Origin: Litoreibacter ascidiaceicola
GTDB lineage: Bacteria; Pseudomonadota; Alphaproteobacteria; Rhodobacterales; Rhodobacteraceae
Direction: 5' to 3'
NCBI RefSeq assembly: GCF_900129235.1
Contig: NZ_FQUV01000001.1
Location: 124,001 to 188,000, forward strand
Length of the DNA stretch: 64,000 nucleotides
Shown: positions 7,033-35,758 of the stretch, one piece after another
Position numbering within the stretch: position 1 is the first letter of the stretch
How the letters are laid out: the number at the start of each line of letters is the position of its first letter
Program-made: the position numbers and the translations under genes
The notes under the pieces: model-generated
Database searches by the model: none
Told to the model about the DNA's origin: nothing
The model's input: the letters and a program-made list of their open reading frames with translations, nothing else

Positions 7033-7077
7033 TCTGTATCTCCGATAGACGCGCGGAATTGGGTCAGTGTCAGTATT

Positions 7078-20086: not shown

Positions 20087-21910
20087 ATGAGTATCAAACC
20101 ACCCTTCACCGACCTCGACATCTCAACAGCAGATGGCGGGTTTTACCACGGAAACAGCGTTCCAATCGCTTTGATCTCCAAGGGGATCATGGTTGCGCTG
20201 GTACTTTGGGCGCTGGTCTTTCCGGGCTACGCCAACAGCACGCTAAGCAGCTGGAACAGCGCGATCCTCGCCAGCTTCAACTCGTTTTATGTCATCATCA
20301 CGGGGCTGTTCTTCTTCTTCCTCGCGATCATCGCAATCATTCCATCCACTGGCCGGCGCGTCATGGGCACGCCGGGCGAGAAGCCGGAGTTCTCGAATTT
20401 CTCATGGTTTTCCATGATGTTCGGGGCCGGTCTGGGCGTGGGCCTGATGGTCTTCGCGACCGCCGAGCCTTTGGGCCTTTGGGGCTCTAACCCTGTTGTG
20501 CTGGCCGGTGACGTTCCCGCCAATTCGGAAGAAGCGCTGCAATCGGCCTATCGCTACACCTTCCTGCATTACGGCTTCCACGCATGGGCAATCTATGTCG
20601 TGACCGGCCTCAGCTTGGCCTATTACGCTTACACACGTGACATGCCGCTGACGATCCGCGCGGCGCTGACGCCTTTGTTTGGCAGCGCGATGAATGGCTT
20701 CTTGGGCCATGTCGTCGACGTGCTGGGGGTTGTGGCCACCATCTTGGGTGTGTCCGTGACCATCGGGTTCGGTGTCAGCCAGTTCATTGACGGGGTCTAT
20801 GCGATCACCGGCATGGAATGGATGATGAACATGGAGGGCGACGCCCCTGCACCGGGCAAAGTCGGCCTTGTGGCTGGTCTTGTGGTGATCATGGCAATGT
20901 CGATCCTGTCTGCTGTGTCAGGCGTTGGCCGGGGGGTTAAGTACCTCTCAAACCTCAATCTGGTTCTGTCGTTGGTCCTGCTGCTGGTCTTCATCATATT
21001 CGGGTCTTTCACCTTTGCCCTGTCGACCTATGGCTCGGCGTTCATCGACTACATCCTGAACTTCGTGCAGCTGTCCTTCGGGGCATATGGTCCGCAATCC
21101 GCAGACGCCTTTGCAGCCGCATTGCCGGAAGCCGCCAAACCATTGGCGGGTGATCTGATGGCAGGTGCGACAAATGCCTGGGGCTCCTTCGACGGTTTCA
21201 AATCCGGCCTTGAAGGCGCCGCAGCAGAGCTGCCAGACGACGTTCTGGCCGCAGCCTACGAAGCAGGCAACCAAGGCCGTCAGTTTGGCTGGCAATCCGG
21301 TTGGTCCACCTTCTACTGGGCGTGGTGGATCGCGTTCTCGCCGTTCGTGGGCCTGTTCCTTGCACGTATCTCCAAAGGCCGTTCCGTGCGCGAATTCATC
21401 ATCGGTTGCGTGATCGCGCCGTCGCTGGTGTGCTTTGCATGGATGACCATCCTTGGTGGCACCGCAATTGATCTGGAACTGACCGGCGGCGCAGAAGGCA
21501 CCATCATCGGGGCGTCCAACACGGCCAAGCTGTTCGTGACACTGGGCGAGATGATCTCCGGCGGATTCCTGTCGGCCATCACCATCATGTGTGTGGTGCT
21601 GATCATGACCTTCCTCGTGACCTCCGCAGACTCGGGCATTCTGGTGATGAACACCATCATGTCCGGTGGCGAGCAGGAAACCGGCGTCAAGCACCGCATC
21701 GTTTGGGGTGTTATCCTGACCTTGGTGATCGGCACGCTGCTGCTTGCCGCGGGGGACAATAACCCGATGGACGCGCTGCGCAACGCGATGATTATCGGGG
21801 CGCTTCCGTTCACCATGGTCATGGGGCTGATGATGATCGCCCTGACCAAGGCGCTGTATCGTGACGGCAAGCGCGACAAGTTCGCGGCGGAAGGACAACC
21901 CGCCGAATAG
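20087..21910 (+). CDS. BCCT-family transporter (betaine/choline/DMSP type)
   Basis: A 607-aa transporter with twelve predicted helices and the family signature in WSTFYWAWWIAFSPFVGLFLARISKGRSVREF. BCCT proteins import quaternary ammonium or sulfonium osmolytes such as glycine betaine, choline or DMSP, coupled to Na+ or H+. The loop rich in Ala and acidic residues around positions 345-405 is longer than usual. A weak AGGGAAAT site precedes the start. It converges on a second BCCT gene across a strong terminator. The nearby dmdA-acuI genes make DMSP a plausible substrate. Confidence 0.92.
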   Translation: MSIKPPFTDLDISTADGGFYHGNSVPIALISKGIMVALVLWALVFPGYANSTLSSWNSAILASFNSFYVIITGLFFFFLAIIAIIPSTGRRVMGTPGEKPEFSNFSWFSMMFGAGLGVGLMVFATAEPLGLWGSNPVVLAGDVPANSEEALQSAYRYTFLHYGFHAWAIYVVTGLSLAYYAYTRDMPLTIRAALTPLFGSAMNGFLGHVVDVLGVVATILGVSVTIGFGVSQFIDGVYAITGMEWMMNMEGDAPAPGKVGLVAGLVVIMAMSILSAVSGVGRGVKYLSNLNLVLSLVLLLVFIIFGSFTFALSTYGSAFIDYILNFVQLSFGAYGPQSADAFAAALPEAAKPLAGDLMAGATNAWGSFDGFKSGLEGAAAELPDDVLAAAYEAGNQGRQFGWQSGWSTFYWAWWIAFSPFVGLFLARISKGRSVREFIIGCVIAPSLVCFAWMTILGGTAIDLELTGGAEGTIIGASNTAKLFVTLGEMISGGFLSAITIMCVVLIMTFLVTSADSGILVMNTIMSGGEQETGVKHRIVWGVILTLVIGTLLLAAGDNNPMDALRNAMIIGALPFTMVMGLMMIALTKALYRDGKRDKFAAEGQPAE

Positions 21911-21934
21911 GCGTCTTTCGCTACTCCAAAAAGA

Positions 21935-21964
21935 AACGGCGCCCCGATCGGGGCGCCGTTTTTC
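21935..21964. terminator. bidirectional intrinsic terminator between two BCCT genes
   Basis: AACGGCGCCC and its complement GGGCGCCGTT form a perfect stem around CGATCG. A T run follows on the + strand, and an A-rich flank gives a partial one on the minus strand. It lies between the convergent genes ending at 21910 and 21984. Confidence 0.92.
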
Positions 21965-21983
21965 GTTTGTGTCGAGATGAAGT

Positions 21984-23621
21984 TTAGCGTTCTTCGGTTT
22001 GAAGCCCTTTGAAGATCGCCCAGCACATCATCAGCAGCACCACCGTAAACGGCAGTCCCGTCGAAATCACCATGGATTGGAGCGACTTCAGCCCCCCGAC
22101 TGACAACAACAGCACGATCGCCACCGCGCCTTCGAAGATGCACCAAAACACGCGCTGTGGCACCGGAGCGTCGATCTTGCCGCCTGCAGTAATCGTGTCG
22201 ATCACAAGGCTGCCGGAATCCGACGAGGTGACGAAGAACACGATTACCAGAATGATCCCGATCAGCGAGGTAATCTGGGTGAGCGGCAAGGCGTCCAGCA
22301 TCTTGAACAGCTTCAACTCAAGCGGCGCATCCTGTGCGGCAACGTAGCCGTCGGCCACAACCTGATGGATCGCGGTGCCACCGAAGACGCTCATCCACAA
22401 CACGCAGACAAGGCTCGGGATCAGCAGAACGCAGATGATGAACTCGCGCACGGTGCGGCCACGGCTGACGCGGGCGATGAACATGCCGACGAAAGGTGAC
22501 CAACTGATCCACCACGCCCAGTAGAACGCGGTCCAGCCCTGGCTGAAGTTCACGTCCTCACGCCCAAGCGGATTGGACAGCGCCGGCAGATACTGGACAT
22601 AGGCCAGCAGGCTGTCGGCAAAGCCGGTCAGGATCGCGACGGTCGGCCCCACGATCAGCACGAACAAGAGCAGCAGGAAGGCCAGCCCCATGTTGATTTC
22701 GGACAGGATCTTCACCCCGCCGTCCAGACCACGCACAACCGAGATCAGCGCGATCGCGGTGATGACGGAGATCAGGATCACCTGCGTGGTGCCGCTGATC
22801 GGCACGCCGAACAGCTCGTTCAGCCCCGCATTTGCCTGCGTCGCGCCAAAGCCCAACGAGGTCGCCAGACCGAACAGCGTGGCAAACACCGCCAGCGTGT
22901 CGATGATGTGGCCGGTCCAGCCCCAGACGCGATCCCCGAAGATCGGGTAAAACGCGGAGCGGATCGTCAGAGGCAAGCCCTTGTTGTAGGTGAACAAGGC
23001 AAGGCTAAGCGCCACGACCGCATAGATCGCCCATGGGTGTAGGCCCCAGTGGAAAATCGTCGCTGCCATGCCAAGTCGGATGGCCTCTTCCTGATTGCCC
23101 GCTGCAGCACCAAGCGGTGCCCAGTCGGTGCGCACGCCGCCCTCGGACGCGGTGCCTCCAAAGGAGCTGGAGAAGTGGCTCATCGGTTCCGACACGCCGT
23201 AGAACATCAGCCCGATGCCCATACCAGCGGCGAACAGCATCGCGAACCAACCGACATAGCTATAGTCCGGCACCGCGTCTTTGCCACCCAACCGCACCTT
23301 GCCCATGGGCAGCACGATCAGCAAAAAGCAGAACAAAACGAAGATGTTGGCCGCCCCGATGAAGAACCAGTCAAAGCCCTTCGTCACCGCCCCGAAAAGC
23401 CATGCGAACAAGGCCCCCGACTGCTCTGGCAGGGCGAGCGTGTAAAACACGAACGCCACGATGGCGACGCCCGAAATGCCAAACACCGGGTTGTGGATGT
23501 CGAACCCGAACGGCCCGACGCTGCCTTCCACATTGTCTTGACCAATCTCGTAATCCGTATCGATCAAATCCGATTCACCGTCCGGCGGGCGGATCCCTTC
23601 ACTTTCAATTTCATCGACCAT
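21984..23621 (-). CDS. BCCT-family transporter
   Basis: A 545-aa member of the same family as the convergent neighbour, with twelve helices and the signature in WTAFYWAWWISWSPFVGMFIARVSRGRTVREF. It lacks the long acidic loop of the other copy, and the two are clearly diverged, so this is not a recent duplication. GGGGAGAT precedes the start. It lies 32 bp downstream of a universal stress protein gene on the same strand, so the two are probably cotranscribed. The substrate (betaine, choline, DMSP) cannot be read from the sequence. Confidence 0.92.
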   Translation of the reverse strand: MVDEIESEGIRPPDGESDLIDTDYEIGQDNVEGSVGPFGFDIHNPVFGISGVAIVAFVFYTLALPEQSGALFAWLFGAVTKGFDWFFIGAANIFVLFCFLLIVLPMGKVRLGGKDAVPDYSYVGWFAMLFAAGMGIGLMFYGVSEPMSHFSSSFGGTASEGGVRTDWAPLGAAAGNQEEAIRLGMAATIFHWGLHPWAIYAVVALSLALFTYNKGLPLTIRSAFYPIFGDRVWGWTGHIIDTLAVFATLFGLATSLGFGATQANAGLNELFGVPISGTTQVILISVITAIALISVVRGLDGGVKILSEINMGLAFLLLLFVLIVGPTVAILTGFADSLLAYVQYLPALSNPLGREDVNFSQGWTAFYWAWWISWSPFVGMFIARVSRGRTVREFIICVLLIPSLVCVLWMSVFGGTAIHQVVADGYVAAQDAPLELKLFKMLDALPLTQITSLIGIILVIVFFVTSSDSGSLVIDTITAGGKIDAPVPQRVFWCIFEGAVAIVLLLSVGGLKSLQSMVISTGLPFTVVLLMMCWAIFKGLQTEER

Positions 23622-23653
23622 TGTCTGATCTCCCCTGTATTATTTTATTATTA

Positions 23654-24067
23654 TCAACGTACCAAAAAGACGGACGCTTTCGCGTGCTGGGCCAGATGCC
23701 CCCCGTGCGATGCCCAAATATGCTCGCTAAACCCCGGTGTGTGCGTGGCCATTACGACCAGATCACAGCCCGTTTCATCCACTGCGGCCAGCAGCGTCTT
23801 GTCCAGATCAACCGCCGGATCGTGGCTGGTCATCGCATGCGACGACGCGGTGACCCCGTGCGATTTGCCCTGCTCTTGCGCGAAGGTTTCCAGCTTCTGC
23901 GCGTATTCCTTGGGACTGTGCGCCACCTTGCCCGGTGTGTTGGACGTTACGCCGACGAAGCAAAGCTCTGCCGTGTGAGTCTTGGCAAGTTCCGCTGCGC
24001 AAAGCAGGGATTTGCCCATCTTACCGCTATGGGCCAGATCGATCGGTACCATAATTTTGTGAAACAT
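23654..24067 (-). CDS. universal stress protein
   Basis: A 137-aa UspA-fold protein. It starts MFHKIMVPIDLAHS and ends VVMATHTPGFSEHIWASHGGHLAQHAKASVFLVR, which resembles the usual ATP-binding G-2x-G-9x-G-S/T pattern but is imperfect. The start at 24067 was chosen for its family N terminus and the GGAGGGACC site upstream. Usp domains are often paired with osmolyte transporters, and this gene is followed by the BCCT gene 32 bp downstream. Confidence 0.88.
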   Translation of the reverse strand: MFHKIMVPIDLAHSGKMGKSLLCAAELAKTHTAELCFVGVTSNTPGKVAHSPKEYAQKLETFAQEQGKSHGVTASSHAMTSHDPAVDLDKTLLAAVDETGCDLVVMATHTPGFSEHIWASHGGHLAQHAKASVFLVR

Positions 24068-24226
24068 CGGTCCCTCCAATTTTGGAAACTGCCGCCGGAG
24101 CAACGCTCAAGCCTTTGAATTTCCATACGCTTTGCAAGGCGGTGGGCCGAGCGCCCGACCGCCTCGTCGCAAAACCGTAACAGGAGGGCGGGTTGCAACG
24201 CAACCTGATCGCCCGACAGGATTTTG

Positions 24227-25210
24227 TCAGGCGTTCACATCGACGACGACGCGACCCTTAACCTGACCTTTCAGGATGTCCTTCCCAAGCTTTGGCAAAT
24301 CCGCCAGCGTCGCGGGCTGAACCATGGCGTCGAGCTTGTCCATCGGCAGGTCTTTCGCGATCCGCTGCCACGCCCGCAGACGGTTGTCATAGGGCTGCAT
24401 CACGCTGTCGATGCCCAGCAGGTTCACGCCGCGCAACAGGAACGGGATCACCGTGGCAGGCAAGGCCGCGCCGCCTGCCAGCCCCACGGCGGAGACCGAT
24501 GCGCCGTATTTCATTTGCCCCAGCAGGCGGGCCAGCATTTCGCCGCCCACCGCGTCAACGCAACCGCCCCACATCTCGGCCTCCAAAGGCCGCTTGGTGG
24601 TCTCGTTGATCTCTTCGCGGGGCACGATCTGCGTTGCACCAAGGCTTTTCAGGTAGTCGGCCGTCTCGGGCCGCCCAGTTACCGCCGCGACCTCATGGCC
24701 CAGATTGGCGAGGATCGCCGTCGCGACCGAGCCCACGCCACCCGCAGCCCCCGTGACCAGCACGGGGCCGTCCTTGATGCCATGGTCCTCAAGCGCCATC
24801 ACCGCCAGCATCGCCGTAAAGCCCGCCGTGCCGACCGCCATCGCCTGCCGTGTGTCCAAGCCATCAGGCAGCGGCACCAGCCAGTCGGCCTTGACGCGGG
24901 CCTTCTGGGAGTAGCCACCCCAATGCGCCTCGCCCACGCGCCAGCCGGTCAGCACCACCTTGTCACCGGGTTTGTAGCGATCGTCGTCCGACGCTTCCAC
25001 CGTGCCCGCGAAGTCGATGCCCGGGATATGCGGGTAGTTCCGCACCAATCCGCCACCCGGCCCGATGCACAGCCCGTCCTTGTAGTTCACAGTGGAATAT
25101 TCCACCGCAACCGTCACCTCACCCTCCGGCAAGCGGTCCAAGGAAATGCTTTGGACAGAGGCACTTGTCTTGCCCTCTTCATCCTTCTCGACGATCAGTG
25201 CGTTAAACAT
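24227..25210 (-). CDS. acuI: acryloyl-CoA reductase (MDR family, AcuI)
   Basis: A 327-aa medium-chain reductase of the YhdH/AcuI branch, without catalytic zinc. NADPH binding is at TGAAGGVGSVATAILANLG, and the N terminus has YSTVNYKDGL and the GIDFAGTV turn. AcuI reduces toxic acryloyl-CoA to propionyl-CoA in DMSP catabolism. It starts 12 bp after the dmdA stop, the dmdA-acuI arrangement of roseobacters, which makes the assignment strong. Confidence 0.93.
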   Translation of the reverse strand: MFNALIVEKDEEGKTSASVQSISLDRLPEGEVTVAVEYSTVNYKDGLCIGPGGGLVRNYPHIPGIDFAGTVEASDDDRYKPGDKVVLTGWRVGEAHWGGYSQKARVKADWLVPLPDGLDTRQAMAVGTAGFTAMLAVMALEDHGIKDGPVLVTGAAGGVGSVATAILANLGHEVAAVTGRPETADYLKSLGATQIVPREEINETTKRPLEAEMWGGCVDAVGGEMLARLLGQMKYGASVSAVGLAGGAALPATVIPFLLRGVNLLGIDSVMQPYDNRLRAWQRIAKDLPMDKLDAMVQPATLADLPKLGKDILKGQVKGRVVVDVNA

Positions 25211-25222
25211 AGGCTCTCTCCT

Positions 25223-26323
25223 TTAAATCCAGAATTCTTCGTGGACCGTCGCCATGCGCGGCCCGTCTTGCGTTTCCACATGCACCTGCGTGCCATCGTC
25301 CCAATGGGTCATCCGCACCATGCCGATGGCGACATTGGTGCCAAAGTCAGGGCTTTTCGCCGCCGAGGTCACCTGCCCGATCACCTTGTCCTTCGCGGTG
25401 ATTTTCCACAGCCGGTCACAGGGCGGCAGGTCTCCCTCAATGCTCAGGGCGCGGATTTGTTTCACCGGGCCTTCCTTGGCCACCCGCAGCAACGCATCGC
25501 GCCCAACGCAGCCGATGGCGGTCTGCGTCGAGCAGAACCGCCCCAGCCCACATTCATGCGGGGTGTTGTCGCGGGTCATGTCGTTGCCATAGGACAGCAT
25601 CCCGCCCTCGACCCGCTCGATCAGGTTGGGGCATCCGGCGTGAACGTCCAGATCACGGCCCGCCTCCATCAAGGCATTCCACAGCGGCATGCCTTTCTCG
25701 GTGCCTTCGACATAAATCTCGAAGCCGCCTTGCTTGGAATAGCCGGACCGCGCGACCAGCATCATGTGGCCCTGAAAGTCGAAATAGCCGTAGCGGAAGA
25801 AGCGCAGATCTTTGACTCCGTCGCCGAACACCCGTGCGGCCAAAGCATCCGCTTGCGGTCCTTGAATGGCCAAGGGGGATACGTCCGGCTCGTCCACGAT
25901 CACATCAAGATGAAAAGCGTAGGCTATCCCTTTGACCCACAACAACATATCGCTATCCGCGATGGACACCCAATAGCGGTCATCGGCCAGCTTCAGCGCC
26001 ACCGGATCGTTGAGCATGCCGCCCGTTTCGTCCACCGTCGGCACGTAGTAGCACATCCCCGGCAGCATCCCCCGCAGGTCGCGCGGGGTTAGCATCTGCA
26101 TCAGACGCCCCGCGTCGGGGCCGCGCAACTCCACCTGCCGCTCGCAGGCGACATCCCAAACCTGCACGGCGGATTTCAGGTGGTGGTAATCCTCCTCGAC
26201 CGAGCGGAACACCGTCGGCAGCAGCATGTGGTTGTAGACGGTGTATCCCTTGACGCCCGCCGCCTCGACCCCGTCCGAGAACGGCGTCCGGCGCACGCGG
26301 CGCGATGGTGCGATTGTGGCCAT
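25223..26323 (-). CDS. dmdA: dimethylsulfoniopropionate demethylase
   Basis: A 366-aa tetrahydrofolate-dependent DMSP demethylase of the glycine-cleavage T-protein fold, yielding methylmercaptopropionate. Features are YTVYNHMLLPTVFRSVEEDYHHLKSAVQVWDVACERQVELRG near the N terminus, then GYSKQGGFEIYVEG and the C-terminal HWDDGTQVHVETQDG. GcvT/AMT proteins are the alternative, but the AcuI neighbour and these segments support DmdA. The start at 26323 has AAGGGGAGGG upstream and lies 2 bp after the stop of an 84-aa gene, so dmdA may be read from an upstream promoter with DUF2182, DUF1326 and DinB genes. Confidence 0.92.
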   Translation of the reverse strand: MATIAPSRRVRRTPFSDGVEAAGVKGYTVYNHMLLPTVFRSVEEDYHHLKSAVQVWDVACERQVELRGPDAGRLMQMLTPRDLRGMLPGMCYYVPTVDETGGMLNDPVALKLADDRYWVSIADSDMLLWVKGIAYAFHLDVIVDEPDVSPLAIQGPQADALAARVFGDGVKDLRFFRYGYFDFQGHMMLVARSGYSKQGGFEIYVEGTEKGMPLWNALMEAGRDLDVHAGCPNLIERVEGGMLSYGNDMTRDNTPHECGLGRFCSTQTAIGCVGRDALLRVAKEGPVKQIRALSIEGDLPPCDRLWKITAKDKVIGQVTSAAKSPDFGTNVAIGMVRMTHWDDGTQVHVETQDGPRMATVHEEFWI

Positions 26324-26325
26324 GT

Positions 26326-26580
26326 TCAAAGCCCTCCCCTTATATTTCGTTTGCAATCAACCGGTCCTCGGCTGGTGCGGCTATAGGCCGACACGCCGCA
26401 GGTCTCGCAACGGAATTCTTGCGGCGCGCCCTTACCGTCGCCGGTTGGCCGCCACTTGCACGGTTTGCGCCGGAATAGTTTGTCGAGCCGGAACGCAACT
26501 TCGTTGCCCGCCCGCCTGCGTCCCCAGCTCCACCAGACAAAGCCCGCGACGGCCAGCAGGATCGCCAGCACCACGGGCAT
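26326..26580 (-). CDS. small membrane-anchored four-Cys protein
   Basis: An 84-aa protein of no family I recognise. A hydrophobic helix (about residues 2-19) is followed by a basic region and four cysteines, one in KPCKW, two in RCETCG and one in DCKRN. This is a likely zinc-ribbon-like or other metal site on the cytoplasmic side. Its ATG overlaps the DinB stop (TGATG), and its own stop is 2 bp before dmdA, so it is locked into that operon. Function unknown. Confidence 0.75.
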   Translation of the reverse strand: MPVVLAILLAVAGFVWWSWGRRRAGNEVAFRLDKLFRRKPCKWRPTGDGKGAPQEFRCETCGVSAYSRTSRGPVDCKRNIRGGL

Positions 26581-27086
26581 CAGGCGTCATCCGGCATGAG
26601 CACAAGGTCGGTATCATCAGGCCGCTGTCCCGCCGCCGTCAGCATCGCGTGAATTTGCCCGCGATGGTGGGTCTGGTGGTTGAAGAAATGCACCGCGCAC
26701 AAGGCCATGGGCTTGCTGAACTCACGATCTGACATGACAGAATAATAGGTCAGCGGCCCAACCAAATCTATCTGGTTCAGCCCCTTCGCCCACCGCTCTA
26801 TCCGCGCATCCGTGCGCAGGCGGTCATCCAGAAACAGCTGCAAATCCTCATGCAGGTTGACGCTATCCGCGCCGCCACTTTTTGGGCCCAGCCCGCCATC
26901 GAAGCGCGACATCCATAGCTGGTCGGCCCACAACAGATGGTTGGCGGTCGCAAAAACCGACCCGAAGAAGGCCTTGCGATCCTTGCGCAGCTCCGCGGGC
27001 TTCATGGATTTGAAAATCTCCATCTGCCCGCGGTTTTGCCACGCATTGTAGCGGGCCATTTCACGGCAATACTCAATCGTGATCAT
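26580..27086 (-). CDS. DinB-family protein
   Basis: A 168-aa four-helix DinB/YfiT-like protein. The metal-binding histidines are expected in ANHLLWAD (about residue 50) and FNHQTHHRGQI (about 134-143). Members act as metal-dependent hydrolases or thiol transferases with bacillithiol, mycothiol or glutathione, though many are uncharacterised. It overlaps DUF1326 by 4 bp (ATGA) upstream and the 84-aa gene by 1 bp downstream. Confidence 0.85.
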   Translation of the reverse strand: MITIEYCREMARYNAWQNRGQMEIFKSMKPAELRKDRKAFFGSVFATANHLLWADQLWMSRFDGGLGPKSGGADSVNLHEDLQLFLDDRLRTDARIERWAKGLNQIDLVGPLTYYSVMSDREFSKPMALCAVHFFNHQTHHRGQIHAMLTAAGQRPDDTDLVLMPDDA

Positions 27087-27724
27087 TTTGGCGCTGGTCC
27101 TCCCCAGTCAATCTGGCAAATCTCGGCGGAGCGCCCGTCGAAGTCCCAAACCCGACCATAAGCACGGACCTTGCCGCGTTTGGCAGTGGCCACGGTGATG
27201 TCTTTGCCCATCCAGTACTCGGTGTTGGTAATCACCATATCCGCGCCGTCCTTACCCGCGACCGGAACAACTTCGCCCTGGATTTTCTTGCCGACCATCA
27301 GGCGGCGCACATTGCCTTCGGTGGTGAAGGACACAGGCGCGCGCTCGGCCCCTAAAAACTCCCCGACCAACATGCTGAACAGGCCCGTCGTGCCTTTCGC
27401 GGCCCCTGACAGGATCGCCTCCAGCCCCGCATAGGCCGCATCGCTGGCTTGGTCGTCAATATAAGCCGCCGCCTTCCAGTTGCCGCGCCCCATATTGCCG
27501 GGAATGTCCATCAACATGCCCACGGCCATGCCGGACAGGTCTTCGTCGCCGTAATGGCCCTCGTCGATGCGGATACCCAGCCACGCCTGACAGTAGCCCT
27601 CTGTCGGCGGGTGTTTACCCAGCGAAACCACGCAAGGGCAAAACACGGTGCAGTTGCAGTTGAGAATAAGCTCGCCCTTGATGTTCCACGGAACAGTTCC
27701 AAGTTCTTGCGCGTCTAAAGCCAT
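27083..27724 (-). CDS. DUF1326 domain protein
   Basis: A 213-aa protein of the DUF1326 family. The N-terminal cysteine cluster LNCNCTVFCPCVV (about residues 22-34), with another Cys in EGYCQAW, suggests a thiol metal site. No signal peptide is visible. It lies 15 bp after the DUF2182 gene; the two families are commonly neighbours. The function is not known, and metal handling is an inference from the cysteines. Confidence 0.82.
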   Translation of the reverse strand: MALDAQELGTVPWNIKGELILNCNCTVFCPCVVSLGKHPPTEGYCQAWLGIRIDEGHYGDEDLSGMAVGMLMDIPGNMGRGNWKAAAYIDDQASDAAYAGLEAILSGAAKGTTGLFSMLVGEFLGAERAPVSFTTEGNVRRLMVGKKIQGEVVPVAGKDGADMVITNTEYWMGKDITVATAKRGKVRAYGRVWDFDGRSAEICQIDWGGPAPK

Positions 27725-27739
27725 GGTTCTTTCCTTTTC

Positions 27740-28501
27740 TTAAATCGCGGTCACGAGGGTCCATGCGCCTGCAATCAGCAGAAGCCCCCCCAGAGGTTTC
27801 GTTATGTATCGACCCAGATCAGGCAGTTTTTCCACCACCATGATCACGGTCGCCAATCCCATGAAAGCCACGCTCATCACGCCGCCCACAAAGGCCAAAA
27901 GCATCAAGGCCCAGCAGCAGCCGAGGCAGACCAGTCCCAGCCGTAATCCGCTGCGCCACGGCCCCTCGTCGAAATGCTGCATGAAGAAGGTCATCGGTTG
28001 GCGGCACTTGCTCAGGCACGCCTCTTTCAGGTTCGAGAACTGGTAGAGCCCCGCCAAAATCAGCAACGCACCCGACAGGCCCGCCGAGAGGCTGCCACCG
28101 AACGCACCGATCAGGCCCGCTTGGAACAAGCCAATTTGCAACCCAGCGGCGATGATGGAAAAGCCAAACCAAACAACAAGATAGCCTGACACCAGCGCGC
28201 CGAAATTCGCGCGGTCGCTGACATGGGTCAGGTCGTCATAGGTGGCCAAAGCGGGCAATACCGTCGGTGCCATCATCGCCGCCGACATCAGCGACCACAT
28301 CAACACCATGCGCAGATATCCGGCGGCGTCGGGCGTGATGGTGCACAGGCTGATCCAAAAATCGCGGCCATAGGTTTGCTCAAGCAGGCGCAGCTCCGGC
28401 GGGATCGACATGGCATAAAGCGCGGTCCAGGACAGCACGATCAGCCCGAACAGCGCAAGCCAATGAGCGCCAGACATTGCTCTGATCCGATCCGACCACA
28501 T
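27740..28501 (-). CDS. DUF2182 integral membrane protein
   Basis: A 253-aa multi-helix membrane protein of the DUF2182 family, described as predicted metal-binding. Features are SLMSAAMMAPTVLPALATYDDL (Met-rich), EACLSKCRQPMTFFMQHFDEGPWRSGLRLGLVCLGCCWALMLL and about six hydrophobic segments. It is the first gene of the minus-strand run ending in dmdA-acuI. Its start is 82 bp from the divergent GntR-type gene, with a strong inverted repeat between them. Confidence 0.82.
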   Translation of the reverse strand: MWSDRIRAMSGAHWLALFGLIVLSWTALYAMSIPPELRLLEQTYGRDFWISLCTITPDAAGYLRMVLMWSLMSAAMMAPTVLPALATYDDLTHVSDRANFGALVSGYLVVWFGFSIIAAGLQIGLFQAGLIGAFGGSLSAGLSGALLILAGLYQFSNLKEACLSKCRQPMTFFMQHFDEGPWRSGLRLGLVCLGCCWALMLLAFVGGVMSVAFMGLATVIMVVEKLPDLGRYITKPLGGLLLIAGAWTLVTAI

Positions 28502-28535: not shown

Positions 28536-28565
28536 AATTGTCAGACTTTTATATGTCTGACAATT
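28536..28565. promoter_or_regulatory. probable operator between DUF2182 operon and FadR-type gene
   Basis: AATTGTCAGAC, 8 bp, then its exact complement GTCTGACAATT: an 11-bp perfect inverted repeat. Each arm holds the pseudo-palindrome GTC-N-GAC, typical of FadR-subfamily half sites. The GTCNGAC centres are 15 bp apart. It lies 19 bp before the regulator start and 35 bp from the DUF2182 start, so it can control both directions. Confidence 0.7.
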
Positions 28566-28583: not shown

Positions 28584-29312
28584 ATGAAAAATTCTTCGAC
28601 ACCACAAGGCGACCTGTCCGCCCAGATCGCGGCCTCCATCCGCGACGCCATCATCGCCGGTGACCTGATCGTAGACGCCCGCCTGCCGTCAGAGGCGGAA
28701 CTGGCGGAGCAATTCAAGGTCTCCCGTCCCACCGTGCGCGAGGCGCTGAAACGGCTGGCGGCCCAAGCCTTGATCCGCACGCAGCGCGGGGCAACGGGCG
28801 GTGCTTTCGTGAACCACCTGAAATACCCGGACGCTTACGCCCAGCAGATCACCACCTCGACGCTACTGTTGTCGATGAACGAGGTGTCCATCGCCACCGC
28901 CTGCGAGGCCCGCTTCGCGCTAGAGCGCGCCTGCACCCGCCTGTCCGCAGAGCGGCGCAGCGCGGATCATTTGGCCACCATGCGGGCCGAGATGTTCCGT
29001 CAATCCCAGCCCGGCCTCAGCGACGAGGCGTTCTGCGCCTCCGACGTGGCCTTCCACCGCGCGTTGGTCGACGGGGCGCAAAACCCCGTGATGTCGTACC
29101 AGCTGGCGGGGGCTGTCGAGGCGATGCAGCCGTTGATGAACATGATCACCTTCACCGCGCGGTCCCGCGAAAAGATCGTCGCCCTGCACGGGCAGATCGC
29201 CGATGCGCTGGAGGCCCAGAACGCCGCCGACGCAGACGCCGCCCTGACCGAGCTGGAGGCTTATACCATCTCGCTGGCCCGTGACGTACTCGACGCCCAC
29301 GCGCGGCGCTGA
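28584..29312 (+). CDS. GntR/FadR-family transcriptional regulator
   Basis: A 242-aa regulator. The winged helix-turn-helix has LPSEAELAEQFKVSRPTVREALKRL (about residues 33-57), and an all-helical FCD effector domain follows from about residue 85. FCD regulators respond to organic acids. It diverges from the DUF2182-to-acuI run across an 11-bp perfect inverted repeat, so autoregulation plus control of that run is likely. Regulation of dmdA-acuI by a GntR protein would fit roseobacter DMSP loci, but the effector cannot be read from sequence. Confidence 0.9.
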   Translation: MKNSSTPQGDLSAQIAASIRDAIIAGDLIVDARLPSEAELAEQFKVSRPTVREALKRLAAQALIRTQRGATGGAFVNHLKYPDAYAQQITTSTLLLSMNEVSIATACEARFALERACTRLSAERRSADHLATMRAEMFRQSQPGLSDEAFCASDVAFHRALVDGAQNPVMSYQLAGAVEAMQPLMNMITFTARSREKIVALHGQIADALEAQNAADADAALTELEAYTISLARDVLDAHARR

Positions 29313-32173: not shown

Positions 32174-32848
32174 TTAGACATTAAACGCCTTGCGGAACGC
32201 ACCTTCACCAATTCCGGAAAAGCGAACGATCCGCGTGCCTTCGGGTCGCATCGCCCAGCCTTGGGCGAAAGTGAAATCGAGAATACCCCGCCCCAGCCGA
32301 CCCGCCAGATGCGACCGCCGTGCTGACCAGTCGAGACAGGATTTGCATTCGGGGCTGCGCGACGCAGCGCTCAGGTCAATCCCAAGCGCGGCCATCTCGG
32401 CCCGTCCTGCATCGGTGAGCGCGATACCCTCGCCCTCCCCCGTCAAAACACCGCGCGCGCGCAGTCCGTCGTAAAGCATCACGCCAACCTCGCCCGCCAG
32501 ATGGTTGTAGCACACCCGCGCACGGCGCAGCTCTGGATCGCGCGGGCCGGTGCGGGTGCGCAATTGTCCCTTGGCCGCCGCTAACCCCATCAAGGCTTCC
32601 AGCACCCCCGCCACATCGGTGTCCGCCAACCGGAAATAATGATGCCGTCCCTGACGCTCCCGCGCGATAAGGCCGCCCTCCTCCAGCCGTGTCAAATGGC
32701 CCGATGCGGTTTGCACCCGCACCCCGGCTTCACGCGCCAGCTCTCCGGCGGTGAGGGCTTTGCCGCTCATTAAAGCCGCCAGCATGTTGGCGCGACCTGG
32801 GTCGCCGATGAGGCTCGCGATGCGGGCAATGTCGGGGCCGTCTTTCAT
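32174..32848 (-). CDS. ArsR-type winged-helix transcriptional regulator
   Basis: A 224-aa regulator, longer than the 100-120 residues of simple ArsR proteins. Its N-terminal winged helix has NMLAALMSGKALTAGELAREAGVRVQTASGHLTRLEEGGLI. The C-terminal part has cysteines in RVCYNHLAGEVG and in CKSCLDWSARRSHLAGRLG, motifs of a known long-ArsR branch. The start at 32848 was chosen for its family N terminus; the open frame extends 27 residues further. It is divergent from the NIPSNAP-ABM-chrBA run and flanked by two similar 18-bp dyads. Confidence 0.85.
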   Translation of the reverse strand: MKDGPDIARIASLIGDPGRANMLAALMSGKALTAGELAREAGVRVQTASGHLTRLEEGGLIARERQGRHHYFRLADTDVAGVLEALMGLAAAKGQLRTRTGPRDPELRRARVCYNHLAGEVGVMLYDGLRARGVLTGEGEGIALTDAGRAEMAALGIDLSAASRSPECKSCLDWSARRSHLAGRLGRGILDFTFAQGWAMRPEGTRIVRFSGIGEGAFRKAFNV

Positions 32849-32863
32849 GATATGCTCTCCATA

Positions 32864-32881
32864 GTTCGTCTCACACCGAAG
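32864..32881. promoter_or_regulatory. second, imperfect copy of the ArsR-type operator
   Basis: GTTCGTCTCACACCGAAG has the same 18-bp frame as the perfect dyad at 32909-32926, with most outer bases matching. It lies 16 bp before the regulator start codon, so binding would repress the regulator. Confidence 0.5.
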
Positions 32882-32908
32882 CATGTACGACAAGCGGATG
32901 CAAGAATA

Positions 32909-32926
32909 GTTCGGTCCAGACCGAAC
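32909..32926. promoter_or_regulatory. operator-like dyad in the arsR/chromate divergent promoter
   Basis: GTTCGGTC, 2 bp, then GACCGAAC: a perfect 8-bp inverted repeat. A related imperfect copy is 45 bp away, close to four helical turns, on the regulator side. Both lie between the divergent starts at 32848 and 32979. Confidence 0.65.
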
Positions 32927-32978
32927 CATTCCCTTGCGCCGACGCGGTAAGTCAGGTCAGCACCAAAGGAGACACTTC

Positions 32979-33302
32979 ATGCTAACCTGCTTCATCCGTT
33001 ACCATATCGACCCCACCAAACGCGCCCAGTTCGAGCAATATGCCCGCAACTGGGGCCAAGCCATTCCGCGCAACGGGGCGGATTTGATCGGCTATTACGC
33101 GCCGCATGAAGGCTCCTCGACGCTGGCTTACGGGGTCTATAACATCCCGTCATTGGCCGAATACGAGGCCTACCGCGCCCGCCTGTCCGCCGACCCGCAG
33201 GGCCGCGAAAACTACGAGTTCGCCCAGAAGGAGAAGTTCATCTTGCGCGAGGACCGCACCTTCCTGAAGCTGGCAAGCGCACCACATGGGAGCCGCACAT
33301 GA
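32979..33302 (+). CDS. NIPSNAP-family protein
   Basis: A 107-aa small alpha/beta-barrel protein of the NIPSNAP type (MLTCFIRYHIDPTKRAQFEQYARNWGQAIPRNGADLIGYYAPHEGS). The start at 32979 has AAAGGAG. It overlaps the next gene by 4 bp (ATGA). It is first of a run leading to chrB and chrA and is controlled by the divergent ArsR-type protein by position. The molecular function of such proteins is poorly defined. Confidence 0.85.
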   Translation: MLTCFIRYHIDPTKRAQFEQYARNWGQAIPRNGADLIGYYAPHEGSSTLAYGVYNIPSLAEYEAYRARLSADPQGRENYEFAQKEKFILREDRTFLKLASAPHGSRT

Positions 33303-33661
33303 TTGCCGTTATCTTTGAAGTCATCCCCGCCGAGGGCCGGAAAACCGCCTATCTGGACATCGCCGCCGACCTGCGCCCGTTGCTCGAGAAGGTCGACGGT
33401 TTCATCTCGGTCGAGCGGTTCCAGTCGATCACAGATCCCGGCAAAATGCTGTCCCTCAGCTTCTTTCGCGACGAAGAGGCCTTGGCAAACTGGCGCGCGC
33501 TGGCGGAGCATCGTGCGGCACAAAAGGCAGGTCGCAGCGGTATCTTCAAAGGGTACCGCCTGCGCATCGGTTCCGTCATCCGCGACTATGAACTGGACGA
33601 GCGTCGTGATCAGGCCCCTGCTGACAGCAACGCAGCCCATGGCTGCCCCTATCGGTCTTGA
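33299..33661 (+). CDS. antibiotic biosynthesis monooxygenase (ABM) fold protein
   Basis: A 120-aa dimeric alpha/beta-barrel protein of the ABM superfamily (IAVIFEVIPAEGRKTAYLDIAADLRPLLEKVDGFISVERFQS). Members include small monooxygenases and stress proteins, and similar genes occur beside chromate resistance genes. It is translationally coupled to the NIPSNAP gene. An 8-bp hairpin (33663-33681) follows the stop, before chrB. The substrate is unknown. Confidence 0.82.
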   Translation: MIAVIFEVIPAEGRKTAYLDIAADLRPLLEKVDGFISVERFQSITDPGKMLSLSFFRDEEALANWRALAEHRAAQKAGRSGIFKGYRLRIGSVIRDYELDERRDQAPADSNAAHGCPYRS

Positions 33662-33662
33662 C

Positions 33663-33681
33663 GCCTTGCGCCACGCAAGGC
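33663..33681 (+). terminator. hairpin between the ABM gene and chrB
   Basis: GCCTTGCG, 3-nt loop, CGCAAGGC: a perfect 8-bp stem two bases after the ABM stop, with no T run. It may limit rather than end transcription into chrBA. Confidence 0.45.
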
Positions 33682-33770
33682 AGGTTACCCCCATGGGGAC
33701 CCCGCGACACCCCGTGAGGCGACAGCCGAAAGTTCGCACCCTTAGACACAAAACCACGGGGTGCTTTACC

Positions 33771-34556
33771 ATGACCGGCTTTACCGAAATCTCTCCCACT
33801 GCCTTGATGCGCCTGATCGGCACGCCTGATGCGCCAACCATTCTGGACGTTTGCATCGACGACTACTTTGCCGAGGACCCGCGCCTGATCCCCACCGCGC
33901 GGCGTTTTCCGCATAGCCGCATCGGTGACTACGAAGACGAAGGCCCCGTCGTCGTGGTCTGCCAGAAGGGCCGCAAGCTCAGTCACGGGGCAGCCGCTTT
34001 GTTGCGTGCCAAGGGCATAGCGGCCGAGTCTTTGGAAGGCGGGAATTACGCGTGGCGGGACGCGGGCCTGCCTCTGATCCCCGCCGCCGTGATCCCTGCG
34101 CCCCTATGGGTCACGCGTCACCGCCCCAAGATCGACCGCATCGCCTGCCCTTGGCTGATCCGGCGCTTTGTCGATCCGTCAGCCCAGTTCCTTTTTGTCC
34201 CCCCAGCAGAGGTGCTGGCGGTGGCCGAGAAATTCGACGCGACGCCGTTCGATATAGAGGGCGTTGCGTTTTCCCATGAGGGCGAGCGGTGCAGCTTTGA
34301 CACCATGCTCACCACCTTCAAACTCGACACCCCAGCACTTCAAACCATGGCAACCGTCATCCGTGCGGCGGATACCAATCGCCACGACCTCGCACCGGAG
34401 GCTGCGGGCCTGCTGGCCCTGTCAGTCGGGCTGTCACGTCAATTTAAGGACGACACCGCGCAGCTGGAGGCGGGCATGACGCTCTATGACGCGCTCTACC
34501 GCTGGGCGCGCGACGGGCAAGGTGAAGGGCATGACTGGCCCGGAGTGGGCAAATGA
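33771..34556 (+). CDS. chrB: chromate resistance protein ChrB with rhodanese-like N terminus
   Basis: A 261-aa protein. Residues 1 to about 100 form a rhodanese-like domain with the active-site loop CQKGRK (about residue 64-69). The ChrB C-terminal domain follows (RHRPKIDRIACPWLIRRFVDPSAQFLFVP). ChrB acts as a chromate sensor or resistance factor beside ChrA. The open frame extends far upstream, but ATG 33771 is the first that gives family sequence, and the intergenic stretch before it is non-coding. It overlaps chrA by 4 bp (ATGA). Confidence 0.88.
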   Translation: MTGFTEISPTALMRLIGTPDAPTILDVCIDDYFAEDPRLIPTARRFPHSRIGDYEDEGPVVVVCQKGRKLSHGAAALLRAKGIAAESLEGGNYAWRDAGLPLIPAAVIPAPLWVTRHRPKIDRIACPWLIRRFVDPSAQFLFVPPAEVLAVAEKFDATPFDIEGVAFSHEGERCSFDTMLTTFKLDTPALQTMATVIRAADTNRHDLAPEAAGLLALSVGLSRQFKDDTAQLEAGMTLYDALYRWARDGQGEGHDWPGVGK

Positions 34557-35758
34557 CGCCACTGTCCGCAATGACCCGTGTTTTCGGGCGCATCGGGCTG
34601 TTGTCCTTCGGCGGCCCCGCGGCGCAGATCGCGTTGATGCACAAGGAACTGGTCGAGGACCGCCCGTGGCTGACCGAGGCGCAATTCCTGCGCGCGCTGT
34701 CGTTTTGTATGCTACTGCCCGGGCCGGAGGCGATGCAGCTTGCCACCTATGCTGGCTGGCGGATGCGCGGGGTCACTGGCGGGCTGCTGGCGGGGCTTTT
34801 GTTTGTCGTGCCGGGGGCCTTGGTCATCATGGTATTGGCCTTGGCCTACGGCCTTTACGGGCAACTCCCCTTGGTGCAGTCGCTGTTCATCGGGGTGAAG
34901 GCCTGTGTGGTGGTGATTGTGGTTCAAGCCCTGATCAAAGTGGCGCGGAAAGCCGTGAAAGGCCCCGTCCATATCGCCATTGCGGTCGCCAGTTTTCTGG
35001 CGCTGTTCGCCCTGAATGCCCCGTTCCCCTTGGTGATCGTCGCCGCCGCCTGTGTTGGCGCACTCACTTTGAGGGGCGAGGCCGAGGGCGGTGCCCCTGC
35101 CCCGAAAACATCCGCAATGGCGACCTTGAAAACCGTCGCCCTGTGGCTGGTCATCTGGTTCGCGCCCGTGCTGGTGCTGGCGCTGGTCGCACCGGGCATC
35201 TTGGTCGATATGGCCAAGTTCTTCTCCACCCTTGCCGTGGTCACATTCGGCGGGGCCTACGCGGTGCTGGCCTATATGACGCAAGCCGTCGTCGGGGATT
35301 TCGGCTGGCTGACCACCGCGCAGATGGTCGACGCTTTGGGGCTGGCCGAGACCACCCCCGGCCCGTTGATCCTTGTGACGCAATTCGTCGCCATGGTGGC
35401 GGGCTTCAAGGCGGGCGGCATCGGGTTGGCACTGGTCGCGGGGCTGGTCACGCTCTGGGTGACCTTCGCGCCGTGCTTTTTGTGGATCTTCGCCGGCGCG
35501 CCCTATATCGATCGCCTCGCCCATATGCCGCGCTTGTCTGGTGCGCTGAGTGCCATCACTGCCGCCGTGGTCGGTGTCATCGCCAATCTGGGCCTTTGGT
35601 TCGCCGGTGCCGTGTTCTTCGACGCAGGTACAGTGCAACCTGTTCCCGTGGTCATCGCCGTGATCGCCGCCGCGCTGCTGCTGTGGCGCAAGTGGGATAT
35701 GTTGGTGGTTTTGCCTATTTGCGCGGCACTCGGTCTGGTTTTGGTCGGGGGCGCATAA
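34553..35758 (+). CDS. chrA: chromate transporter ChrA
   Basis: A 401-aa long-chain CHR transporter that exports chromate. Two homologous halves are visible, each with an FGGP/FGGAY-type motif: FGGPAAQIALMHKELVEDRPWLTEAQFLRALSFCMLLPGPEA in the first and TFGGAYAVLAYM in the second. The hydrophobic profile fits 10-11 helices. It is translationally coupled to chrB and is the last gene of the run. Confidence 0.93.
   Translation: MTPLSAMTRVFGRIGLLSFGGPAAQIALMHKELVEDRPWLTEAQFLRALSFCMLLPGPEAMQLATYAGWRMRGVTGGLLAGLLFVVPGALVIMVLALAYGLYGQLPLVQSLFIGVKACVVVIVVQALIKVARKAVKGPVHIAIAVASFLALFALNAPFPLVIVAAACVGALTLRGEAEGGAPAPKTSAMATLKTVALWLVIWFAPVLVLALVAPGILVDMAKFFSTLAVVTFGGAYAVLAYMTQAVVGDFGWLTTAQMVDALGLAETTPGPLILVTQFVAMVAGFKAGGIGLALVAGLVTLWVTFAPCFLWIFAGAPYIDRLAHMPRLSGALSAITAAVVGVIANLGLWFAGAVFFDAGTVQPVPVVIAVIAAALLLWRKWDMLVVLPICAALGLVLVGGA

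Follow-up and report, generated by a model that had tools for sequence, protein, structure and literature searches.

A conserved DUF2182-DUF1326 gene pair heads the dmdA-acuI gene run in most dmdA-bearing Rhodobacteraceae

Why should a run of unexplained, metal-type genes lead straight into the genes for dimethylsulfoniopropionate (DMSP) demethylase and acryloyl-CoA reductase? The question is raised by a 64,000-nucleotide stretch of contig NZ_FQUV01000001.1 of Litoreibacter ascidiaceicola (positions 124,001 to 188,000), referred to below as the window, in which six genes follow one another on the minus strand. These are the genes for a DUF2182/PpoB2-family membrane protein (27740-28501; PF09948, 200.4 bits against a cut-off of 28.7, 3e-59), a DUF1326 protein with a CNCxxxCPC motif (27083-27724; PF07040, 173 bits against 25, 1e-50), a DinB-superfamily protein (26580-27086; PF05163, 65.5 bits against 23, 7e-18) and a small four-cysteine protein of 84 amino acids (26326-26580, read off the sequence), followed by dmdA (25223-26323, ATG at 26323; NF009133, 669 bits against 410) and, directly behind it, acuI (24227-25210; TIGR02823, 453 bits against 297; NF051456, 424 bits, 16 under the cut-off of 440). 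The intergenic distances, likewise read off the sequence, are 15, -4, -1, 2 and 12 bp, in agreement with the initial annotation, which had been made from the sequence alone. Comparative analysis of the family leads us to conclude that these unexplained genes are very probably members of the DMSP/acrylate operon, and that the core of the group is the DUF2182-DUF1326 pair.

The linkage of the pair to dmdA was followed in 295 Rhodobacteraceae genomes over 294 genera, of which 125 encode DmdA above the curated cut-off, 151 DUF1326 and 156 DUF2182. In at least 91 of the 125 dmdA genomes, DUF1326 lies on the same strand no more than 2 kb upstream of dmdA; by our own arithmetic, random same-strand placement within 2 kb would yield ∼0.03 cases per 125 genomes. 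Among the matches listed, the distance between the DUF1326 and dmdA profile matches is 45-330 bp in 39 cases, 545-601 bp (space enough for DinB) in 41, 665-818 bp in four and 1,501-1,702 bp in seven. DUF1326 was found in 106/125 genomes with dmdA versus 45/170 without it; such counts share descent, and Fisher P values derived from them are not a probability of function. All 19 dmdA loci from the genus of the window have DUF1326 and DinB upstream of dmdA, and 18 of them also DUF2182, the single remaining locus being cut by a contig end. Within the genus, L. meonggei has an identical DUF1326 protein (100%), and the DmdA proteins of L. meonggei and L. arenae share 94% and 98% amino acid sequence identity, respectively, with DmdA of the window. 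The gene order is thereby conserved across genera as well as within one, and the run is no local accident.

A quick tree, in which no exact branching is claimed, was built from the 102 DmdA proteins with 2.5 kb of upstream sequence, 81 of them linked to DUF1326. Most of the linked proteins fall into the main group, with ∼70-100% identity to DmdA of the window. A separate clade of 12 proteins (58-63% identity to the same protein; Shimodaira-Hasegawa-like approximate likelihood ratio test support 92) contains eight that are encoded behind DUF1326, in the same slot. The second-lineage DmdA found there (L104, L106, L113, L142, L155, L176, L097 and L250; L and G numbers are our handles for loci and genomes) looks as if it had taken the place of an earlier dmdA in situ. 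Locus L106, unit included, is typical of Rhodobacteraceae, and the title of its record, Nocardioides marinus, is probably a wrong label for the assembly.

To what extent the other members of the run accompany the pair can be seen in 80 named loci, picked by DUF1326 and searched with the genes of the window by tblastn, from genera including Ruegeria, Leisingera, Shimia, Roseovarius, Yoonia and Marinovum. The commonest orders are gntR-DUF2182-DUF1326-dmdA-acuI (25 loci) and the same with DinB (19 loci). A divergent gntR gene lies upstream in 60 of the 72 named loci with 2.5 kb of upstream sequence, and the 68 loci with 5.5 kb downstream contain acuI (62), dmdA (54), DinB (30), csd-like (24), photolyase (15), usp (13), cfa-like (11) and BCCT transporter genes (7). 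Homologues of the 84-amino-acid gene are rare, having been seen only in L003-L006, L099, L100 and L217; its product has four cysteines and, by eye, an N-terminal hydrophobic stretch, and matched no family above cut-off in the profile search. Hence, DinB and above all the 84-amino-acid gene are optional. The question posed by the initial annotation, whether DUF2182, DUF1326 and DinB are kept together beside dmdA elsewhere, is therefore answered in the affirmative for the DUF pair, whereas DinB is present in fewer than half of these 68 loci.

The gene dmdA is optional too. Of the genomes listed with DUF1326, 37 had no DmdA above the cut-off, and 28 loci from 27 of these were retrieved; five of these 27 genomes (G024, G026, G133, G173 and G237) carry a DmdA-like protein below the cut-off, and in L061 a DmdA-like gene of 43% lies in front. 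In 21 of the 28 loci the order is DUF2182-DUF1326, and 17 of these 21 have acuI downstream on the same strand with no dmdA behind the pair; in the remaining four, acuI lies across gntR (two loci), the contig is cut (one) or no acuI is in reach (one). The other seven loci have the reverse order, DUF1326-DUF2182, without acuI, and constitute a separate type. Pairs of the reverse type (L043, L046, L048, L050, L051, L054, L064, L067, L068 and L073-L078) at times have a second DUF1326, stand among mixed neighbours and lack true acuI or dmdA. In a DUF1326 tree built from 125 loci whose downstream sequence extends for 3.5 kb or more (duplicates and broken reads dropped; L115 and L118 scored as without dmdA under the score limit applied to it), the presence of dmdA switches at least 20 times. 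Many genomes that lack dmdA thus retain the pair beside acuI, and the view of the initial annotation that a four-gene block is tied specifically to demethylation is not supported, the 84-amino-acid gene being patchy and DinB optional as well.

Further variation concerns an acyl-CoA ligase gene, which stands between DUF1326 and dmdA in eleven loci (L091, at 5442-7046, L135, L144, L148, L151, L172 and L211-L215), with L091/L172, L148/L211 and L151/L212 looking like identical places fetched twice, and adjoins dmdA in further loci. Its product matches PRK08162 (744 bits, cut-off 677). The possibility that it is DmdB was considered and dropped, since the 3-methylmercaptopropionate-CoA ligase model PRK07008 gave 299 bits versus a cut-off of 822; it is hence referred to as an acyl-CoA ligase only. 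In G100, G169, G184 and G228, acuI is on a different contig from the locus, so acuI is optional at this place as well. Given that the pair occurs with acuI in the absence of dmdA and with dmdA in the absence of acuI, its task should be common to the demethylation and acrylate branches.

At the head of the run lies the 82-bp gap between DUF2182 and the divergent gene for a GntR/FCD-family protein (28584-29312, plus strand; PF00392, 1e-18; PF07729, 6e-17), the proposed regulator of the run. The gap contains an 11-bp perfect inverted repeat (28536-28565), AATTGTCAGACATATAAAAGTCTGACAATT, with two GTC-N-GAC units, and within it the twin operator core TGTCAGAC-N8-GTCTGACA (28539-28562). The operator consensus of the FadR subfamily is of the GTC-N-GAC type, and here, as for FadR-type regulators, such palindromes adjoin a GntR/FCD regulator gene. 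A perfect match to the pattern TGTCWGAC-N8-GTCWGACA occurs exactly once in the 3.74-Mb genome (22 contigs, 99.98% complete), namely in this gap. Among 101 gntR-flanking gaps, including that of the window but leaving out L001 (which is the window again) and L227 (gap too short), 36 have a perfect site and 68 a site with no more than two mismatches, versus 0/2020 shuffled gaps. Sorted by the next gene, the site is present in 65/95 gaps before DUF2182, 3/3 before dmdA (L089, L225 and L226), 0/1 before DinB and 0/2 before acuI; gntR-dmdA loci without the pair have it in three of four cases. Fetched loci totalling 2.58 Mb, in which the same or close species are present more than once, contain 80 sites with no more than two mismatches: 72 fall in the gap from gntR to the DUF pair, three in that from gntR to dmdA and one before DinB-dmdA-acuI, and four are flanked on one side or both by a locus end. 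In 61 whole genomes (that of L. ascidiaceicola and its relatives), 17 have a site with at most one mismatch, namely 15 of 21 of the same genus, G025 and G040, with none in the reversed control; G002 and G025 have one additional site each. Within the run no site was found at five or fewer mismatches, the region before dmdA included. The operator, in short, mostly remains at the head, whatever gene stands first.

These data suggest that the divergent GntR/FCD protein binds the twin operator and that transcription of the unit would start in, and be controlled at, the gntR-DUF2182 gap. That the run is under shared regulation is very probable, and its co-transcription is suggested by the conserved order together with the operator. 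The tie between metal-type genes and dmdA proposed in the initial annotation is accordingly strengthened by an order kept across genera and by a common GntR-type operator at the head. Neither of the two findings that would have spoken against that tie, a strong promoter in the 84-amino-acid gene and a lack of conserved order, was made. A scan of the run for sigma-70-like promoters, which cannot exclude a promoter, returned three matches versus 1.7 expected and none on the minus strand within the 84-amino-acid gene. The sole minus-strand match (27111-27082) is at the DUF1326/DinB junction, and a plus-strand match (26317-26346) overlaps the end of the 84-amino-acid gene, inside whose 3' end sits a purine-rich, ribosome-binding-like stretch ahead of dmdA.

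In Ruegeria pomeroyi, dmdA-acuI fusions were reported to be induced by DMSP and more so by acrylate (PMC3338564); by analogy, the DUF genes would be induced by acrylate together with dmdA-acuI. As to what the pair contributes, its family and conserved residues make a metal role plausible. DUF2182 is now the Pfam family PpoB2, described as "Copper chaperone" (PF09948). Its residues C162, C166, C192, C195 and C196 are invariant both in a set of 19 sequences and in one of 42, and its first loop carries either an LC motif, as in the window, or 8-9 methionines (L049, L053, L055, L079 and L092), cysteine and methionine both being soft-metal ligands. In DUF1326, C23, C25, C29 and C31 of the CNCxxxCPC-type motif and C45 are invariant in 21 sequences. 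In DinB, H50 is invariant and H137, H141 and H146 nearly so (15 sequences), a trait in common with metal-dependent thiol transferases of the DinB family; such histidines of DinB proteins bind metal. Copper is the best guess as to the metal of the pair.

On these grounds the promoter-proximal pair may be regarded as a soft-metal module, probably for Cu(I), in which DUF1326 would act as a soluble carrier with a cysteine cluster and DUF2182 as its membrane partner. Acryloyl-type CoA thioesters react with thiols, and both branches yield such compounds; acrylate, acryloyl-CoA and, on the demethylation route, methylthioacryloyl-CoA could alkylate the thiols that buffer Cu(I). AcuI would then clear the electrophile, DmdA would steer DMSP away from acrylate, and the pair, with the optional DinB, would handle the metal or thiols set free. 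The soft-metal role has in our opinion about an even chance of being correct, and so has the composite view of the run as a single regulatory unit for the catabolism of DMSP and acrylate by Rhodobacteraceae, with the pair in that role. The step linking electrophile and copper buffer is speculative, and equally doubtful, though we put it forward, is a copper arm of this catabolism in most Rhodobacteraceae that have dmdA, in which the acrylate-induced pair would take up Cu(I) freed on depletion of thiols by acryloyl-CoA or methylthioacryloyl-CoA.

A number of observations weigh against this interpretation. The genome counts are not independent of descent, and 19 of the 125 dmdA genomes have no DUF1326. 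As regards the operator, 33 of the 101 gntR-flanking gaps have no site within two mismatches, some of these gaps being shortened by start calls; the gntR-dmdA locus L246 and the gntR-DinB-dmdA locus L083 have none, nor do nine acuI loci without dmdA and the pair (L231-L235, L237, L238, L240 and L241) or most dmdA loci without gntR. In the genome of L. ascidiaceicola itself, the count at two mismatches does not exceed that of the reversed control (2 vs 3), and therefore only the perfect genomic match is informative. There is no copper protein within the operon, no client is known, and DUF2182 of the window carries the cysteine loop, not the methionine-rich one. Finally, pairs free of both dmdA and acuI exist elsewhere, two of them, from a different alphaproteobacterial family, standing beside phosphatidylcholine-synthase-like and quinone-reductase genes. 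No Pfam family was found in more than two of the 109 neighbours of non-acuI-type pairs that were scanned (of 234 listed), and thus no steady partner. One must bear in mind, however, that precisely this lack of a steady partner makes the tie of the pair to DMSP genes look like a trait of Rhodobacteraceae.

Ten direct neighbours of pairs outside the acuI type, checked singly, belong mostly to unrelated families. The neighbour of the pair that had passed for acuI in L194 and L197 was identified as a quinone reductase (PRK10754) and dropped; L199-L203 have matches of 22-28% identity at the same distance. In L195, from another bacterial family, the order is DUF2182-DUF1326-ligase, with no dmdA.

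Of the competing explanations, the one that survives best, although we consider it unlikely, is that DUF1326 is an enzyme: its barrel, of the acetoacetate-decarboxylase-like kind, would act on some small pathway compound of acyl, keto or methylthio type, and DUF2182 would be its partner in the membrane. Structural re-alignment of the predicted DUF1326 model placed acetoacetate-decarboxylase-like proteins in all of the top 12 rows (Z 8.3-9.5, rmsd, the root-mean-square deviation, 3.6-4.6 over 150-162 residues; next Z 6.2), the top 11 Foldseek rows belong to the same superfamily, and the operon also takes in an acyl-CoA ligase. The barrel assignment is nevertheless weakly indicated: the model has a mean predicted local distance difference test score (pLDDT) of 64.5 and a predicted template modelling (TM) score of 0.70, with the Cys motif and the C-terminus below 50 in pLDDT, the Foldseek TM-scores are below 0.4, and best Z values of 7-8 are common by chance. 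Moreover, the residues that are invariant across types centre on CNC...CPC, and the pair is also present in genomes outside Rhodobacteraceae. For the DUF2182 model (pLDDT 80), Foldseek gave nothing at E <= 0.001 and all Z values stayed below 5, which is not evidence of a new fold, and a search by sequence for solved relatives of DUF1326 or DUF2182 found none, apart from one DUF1326 row at E 0.35.

A link to methanethiol (MeSH), the thiol formed on the demethylation route, had been suggested in the initial annotation and takes its most concrete form in the proposal that the pair supplies copper to the MeSH-removing oxidase MtoX (SBP56), reported to be a Cu enzyme (PMC5739008). The gene is found directly behind dmdA in L209 (G110) and close to the unit's gntR in L208 and L210 (G087 and G283), and over all 295 genomes SBP56 occurs in 75/151 with DUF1326 versus 23/144 without; the same tendency, weak, is seen among genomes without dmdA (11/45 versus 13/125, P 0.03). 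On the other hand, dmdA itself tracks SBP56 (74/125 versus 24/170), which can account for the overall association, and within the dmdA genomes DUF1326 does not (64/106 with it versus 10/19 without). The genome of L. ascidiaceicola has no match to SBP56-type methanethiol oxidase (PF05694), a search in which the Sulfolobus acidocaldarius control was matched. In addition, the pair persists without dmdA, and mtoX was reported often to have its own SCO1/SenC and mauG genes (PMC5739008). A direct role of the pair in MeSH oxidation is thus less likely, handling of MeSH in general seems doubtful, and copper delivery to MtoX is improbable.

Least probable of all is that an ancestral order has simply been kept without a functional tie, for although csd-like, photolyase and cfa-like genes recur here too, they do so less often than acuI and dmdA in the 68 loci picked by DUF1326, the pair-dmdA block also exists where acuI is not adjacent (L091, L148, L151, L213 and L214), two DmdA lineages occupy one slot, and the operator mostly stays with the first gene of the run, whatever that gene is.

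Returning to the regulated unit with a putative soft-metal pair, its relation to described systems can be defined as follows. Adjacency of dmdA and acuI is already known: of 26 DmdA-bearing Roseobacters, only two lack it (PMC3338564). The R. pomeroyi genes (SPO1913-SPO1914; Todd et al. 2012, PMC3338564) resemble those of the window in that acuI directly follows dmdA, likely under the same acrylate-responsive control, whereas in the window four genes, and elsewhere two or three, separate the promoter/operator from dmdA. Since the R. pomeroyi promoter was reported on a 350-bp fragment ending within dmdA, the DUF pair is probably absent there, and a copper arm would perhaps have been overlooked because this model strain seems to lack the pair. 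In the acuR-acuI-dddL operon of Rhodobacter sphaeroides, a gene for a regulator and one acting on DMSP likewise accompany acuI, but the regulator is of the TetR type, the DMSP gene codes for a lyase, and DUF2182/DUF1326 are not mentioned in the available part of that report (PMC3338564). PpoB2 (COG5486) of Marinomonas mediterranea, a membrane protein reported to transfer copper (PMC2855505), can be placed, through its name and its COG, in the Pfam family of DUF2182 (PF09948); it is described in an operon with tyrosinase, whereas DUF2182 of the window adjoins DUF1326 instead. Tyrosinase (PF00264) had no match in the L. ascidiaceicola genome, but the control genomes gave no match either. The SCO1/SenC and MauG genes beside mtoX (PMC5739008) are similar in that they serve copper maturation and accompany a route for DMSP-derived sulfur; they are of other families and are tied to MtoX. 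No mention of DUF2182 or DUF1326 beside dmdA was found in a literature search that left subscription journals mostly uncovered and had no positive control for DUF terms, and nothing relevant was found on dmdA with DinB. We therefore rate the dmdA-acuI operon as known and the form of it that is headed by the conserved core pair, of putative function, as new.

The gene dmdA marks the demethylation branch, on which it depends how much of the sulfur of DMSP, an algal compound, becomes dimethyl sulfide; a conserved and apparently co-regulated pair in most such operons, and in many genera, means that a metal, thiol or electrophile side of the pathway may be unstudied. Regulator, operator and pair form a directly testable set, with a single regulator, two core genes and roughly one strong site in each genome; the copper arm, if true, would connect sulfur turnover in the sea with copper status.

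Downstream of acuI, at a distance of 123 bp counted to the listed TTG start, lies a universal stress protein gene, usp (23654-24103, minus strand; PF00582), followed by a BCCT transporter gene (21984-23621, minus strand; PF02028). Both are occasional neighbours and, in view of this gap, may form a transcript separate from the run. The initial annotation had placed two BCCT genes and usp behind the run, which is correct for these two, on the same strand, but not for the second BCCT gene (20087-21910; PF02028), which is on the plus strand, convergent and outside the run. On the other side of gntR, the region 32174-35758 contains what we take, from translations inspected by eye, to be an ArsR-like regulator, small ORFs, a rhodanese/ChrB-like ORF and a ChrA-like chromate transporter.

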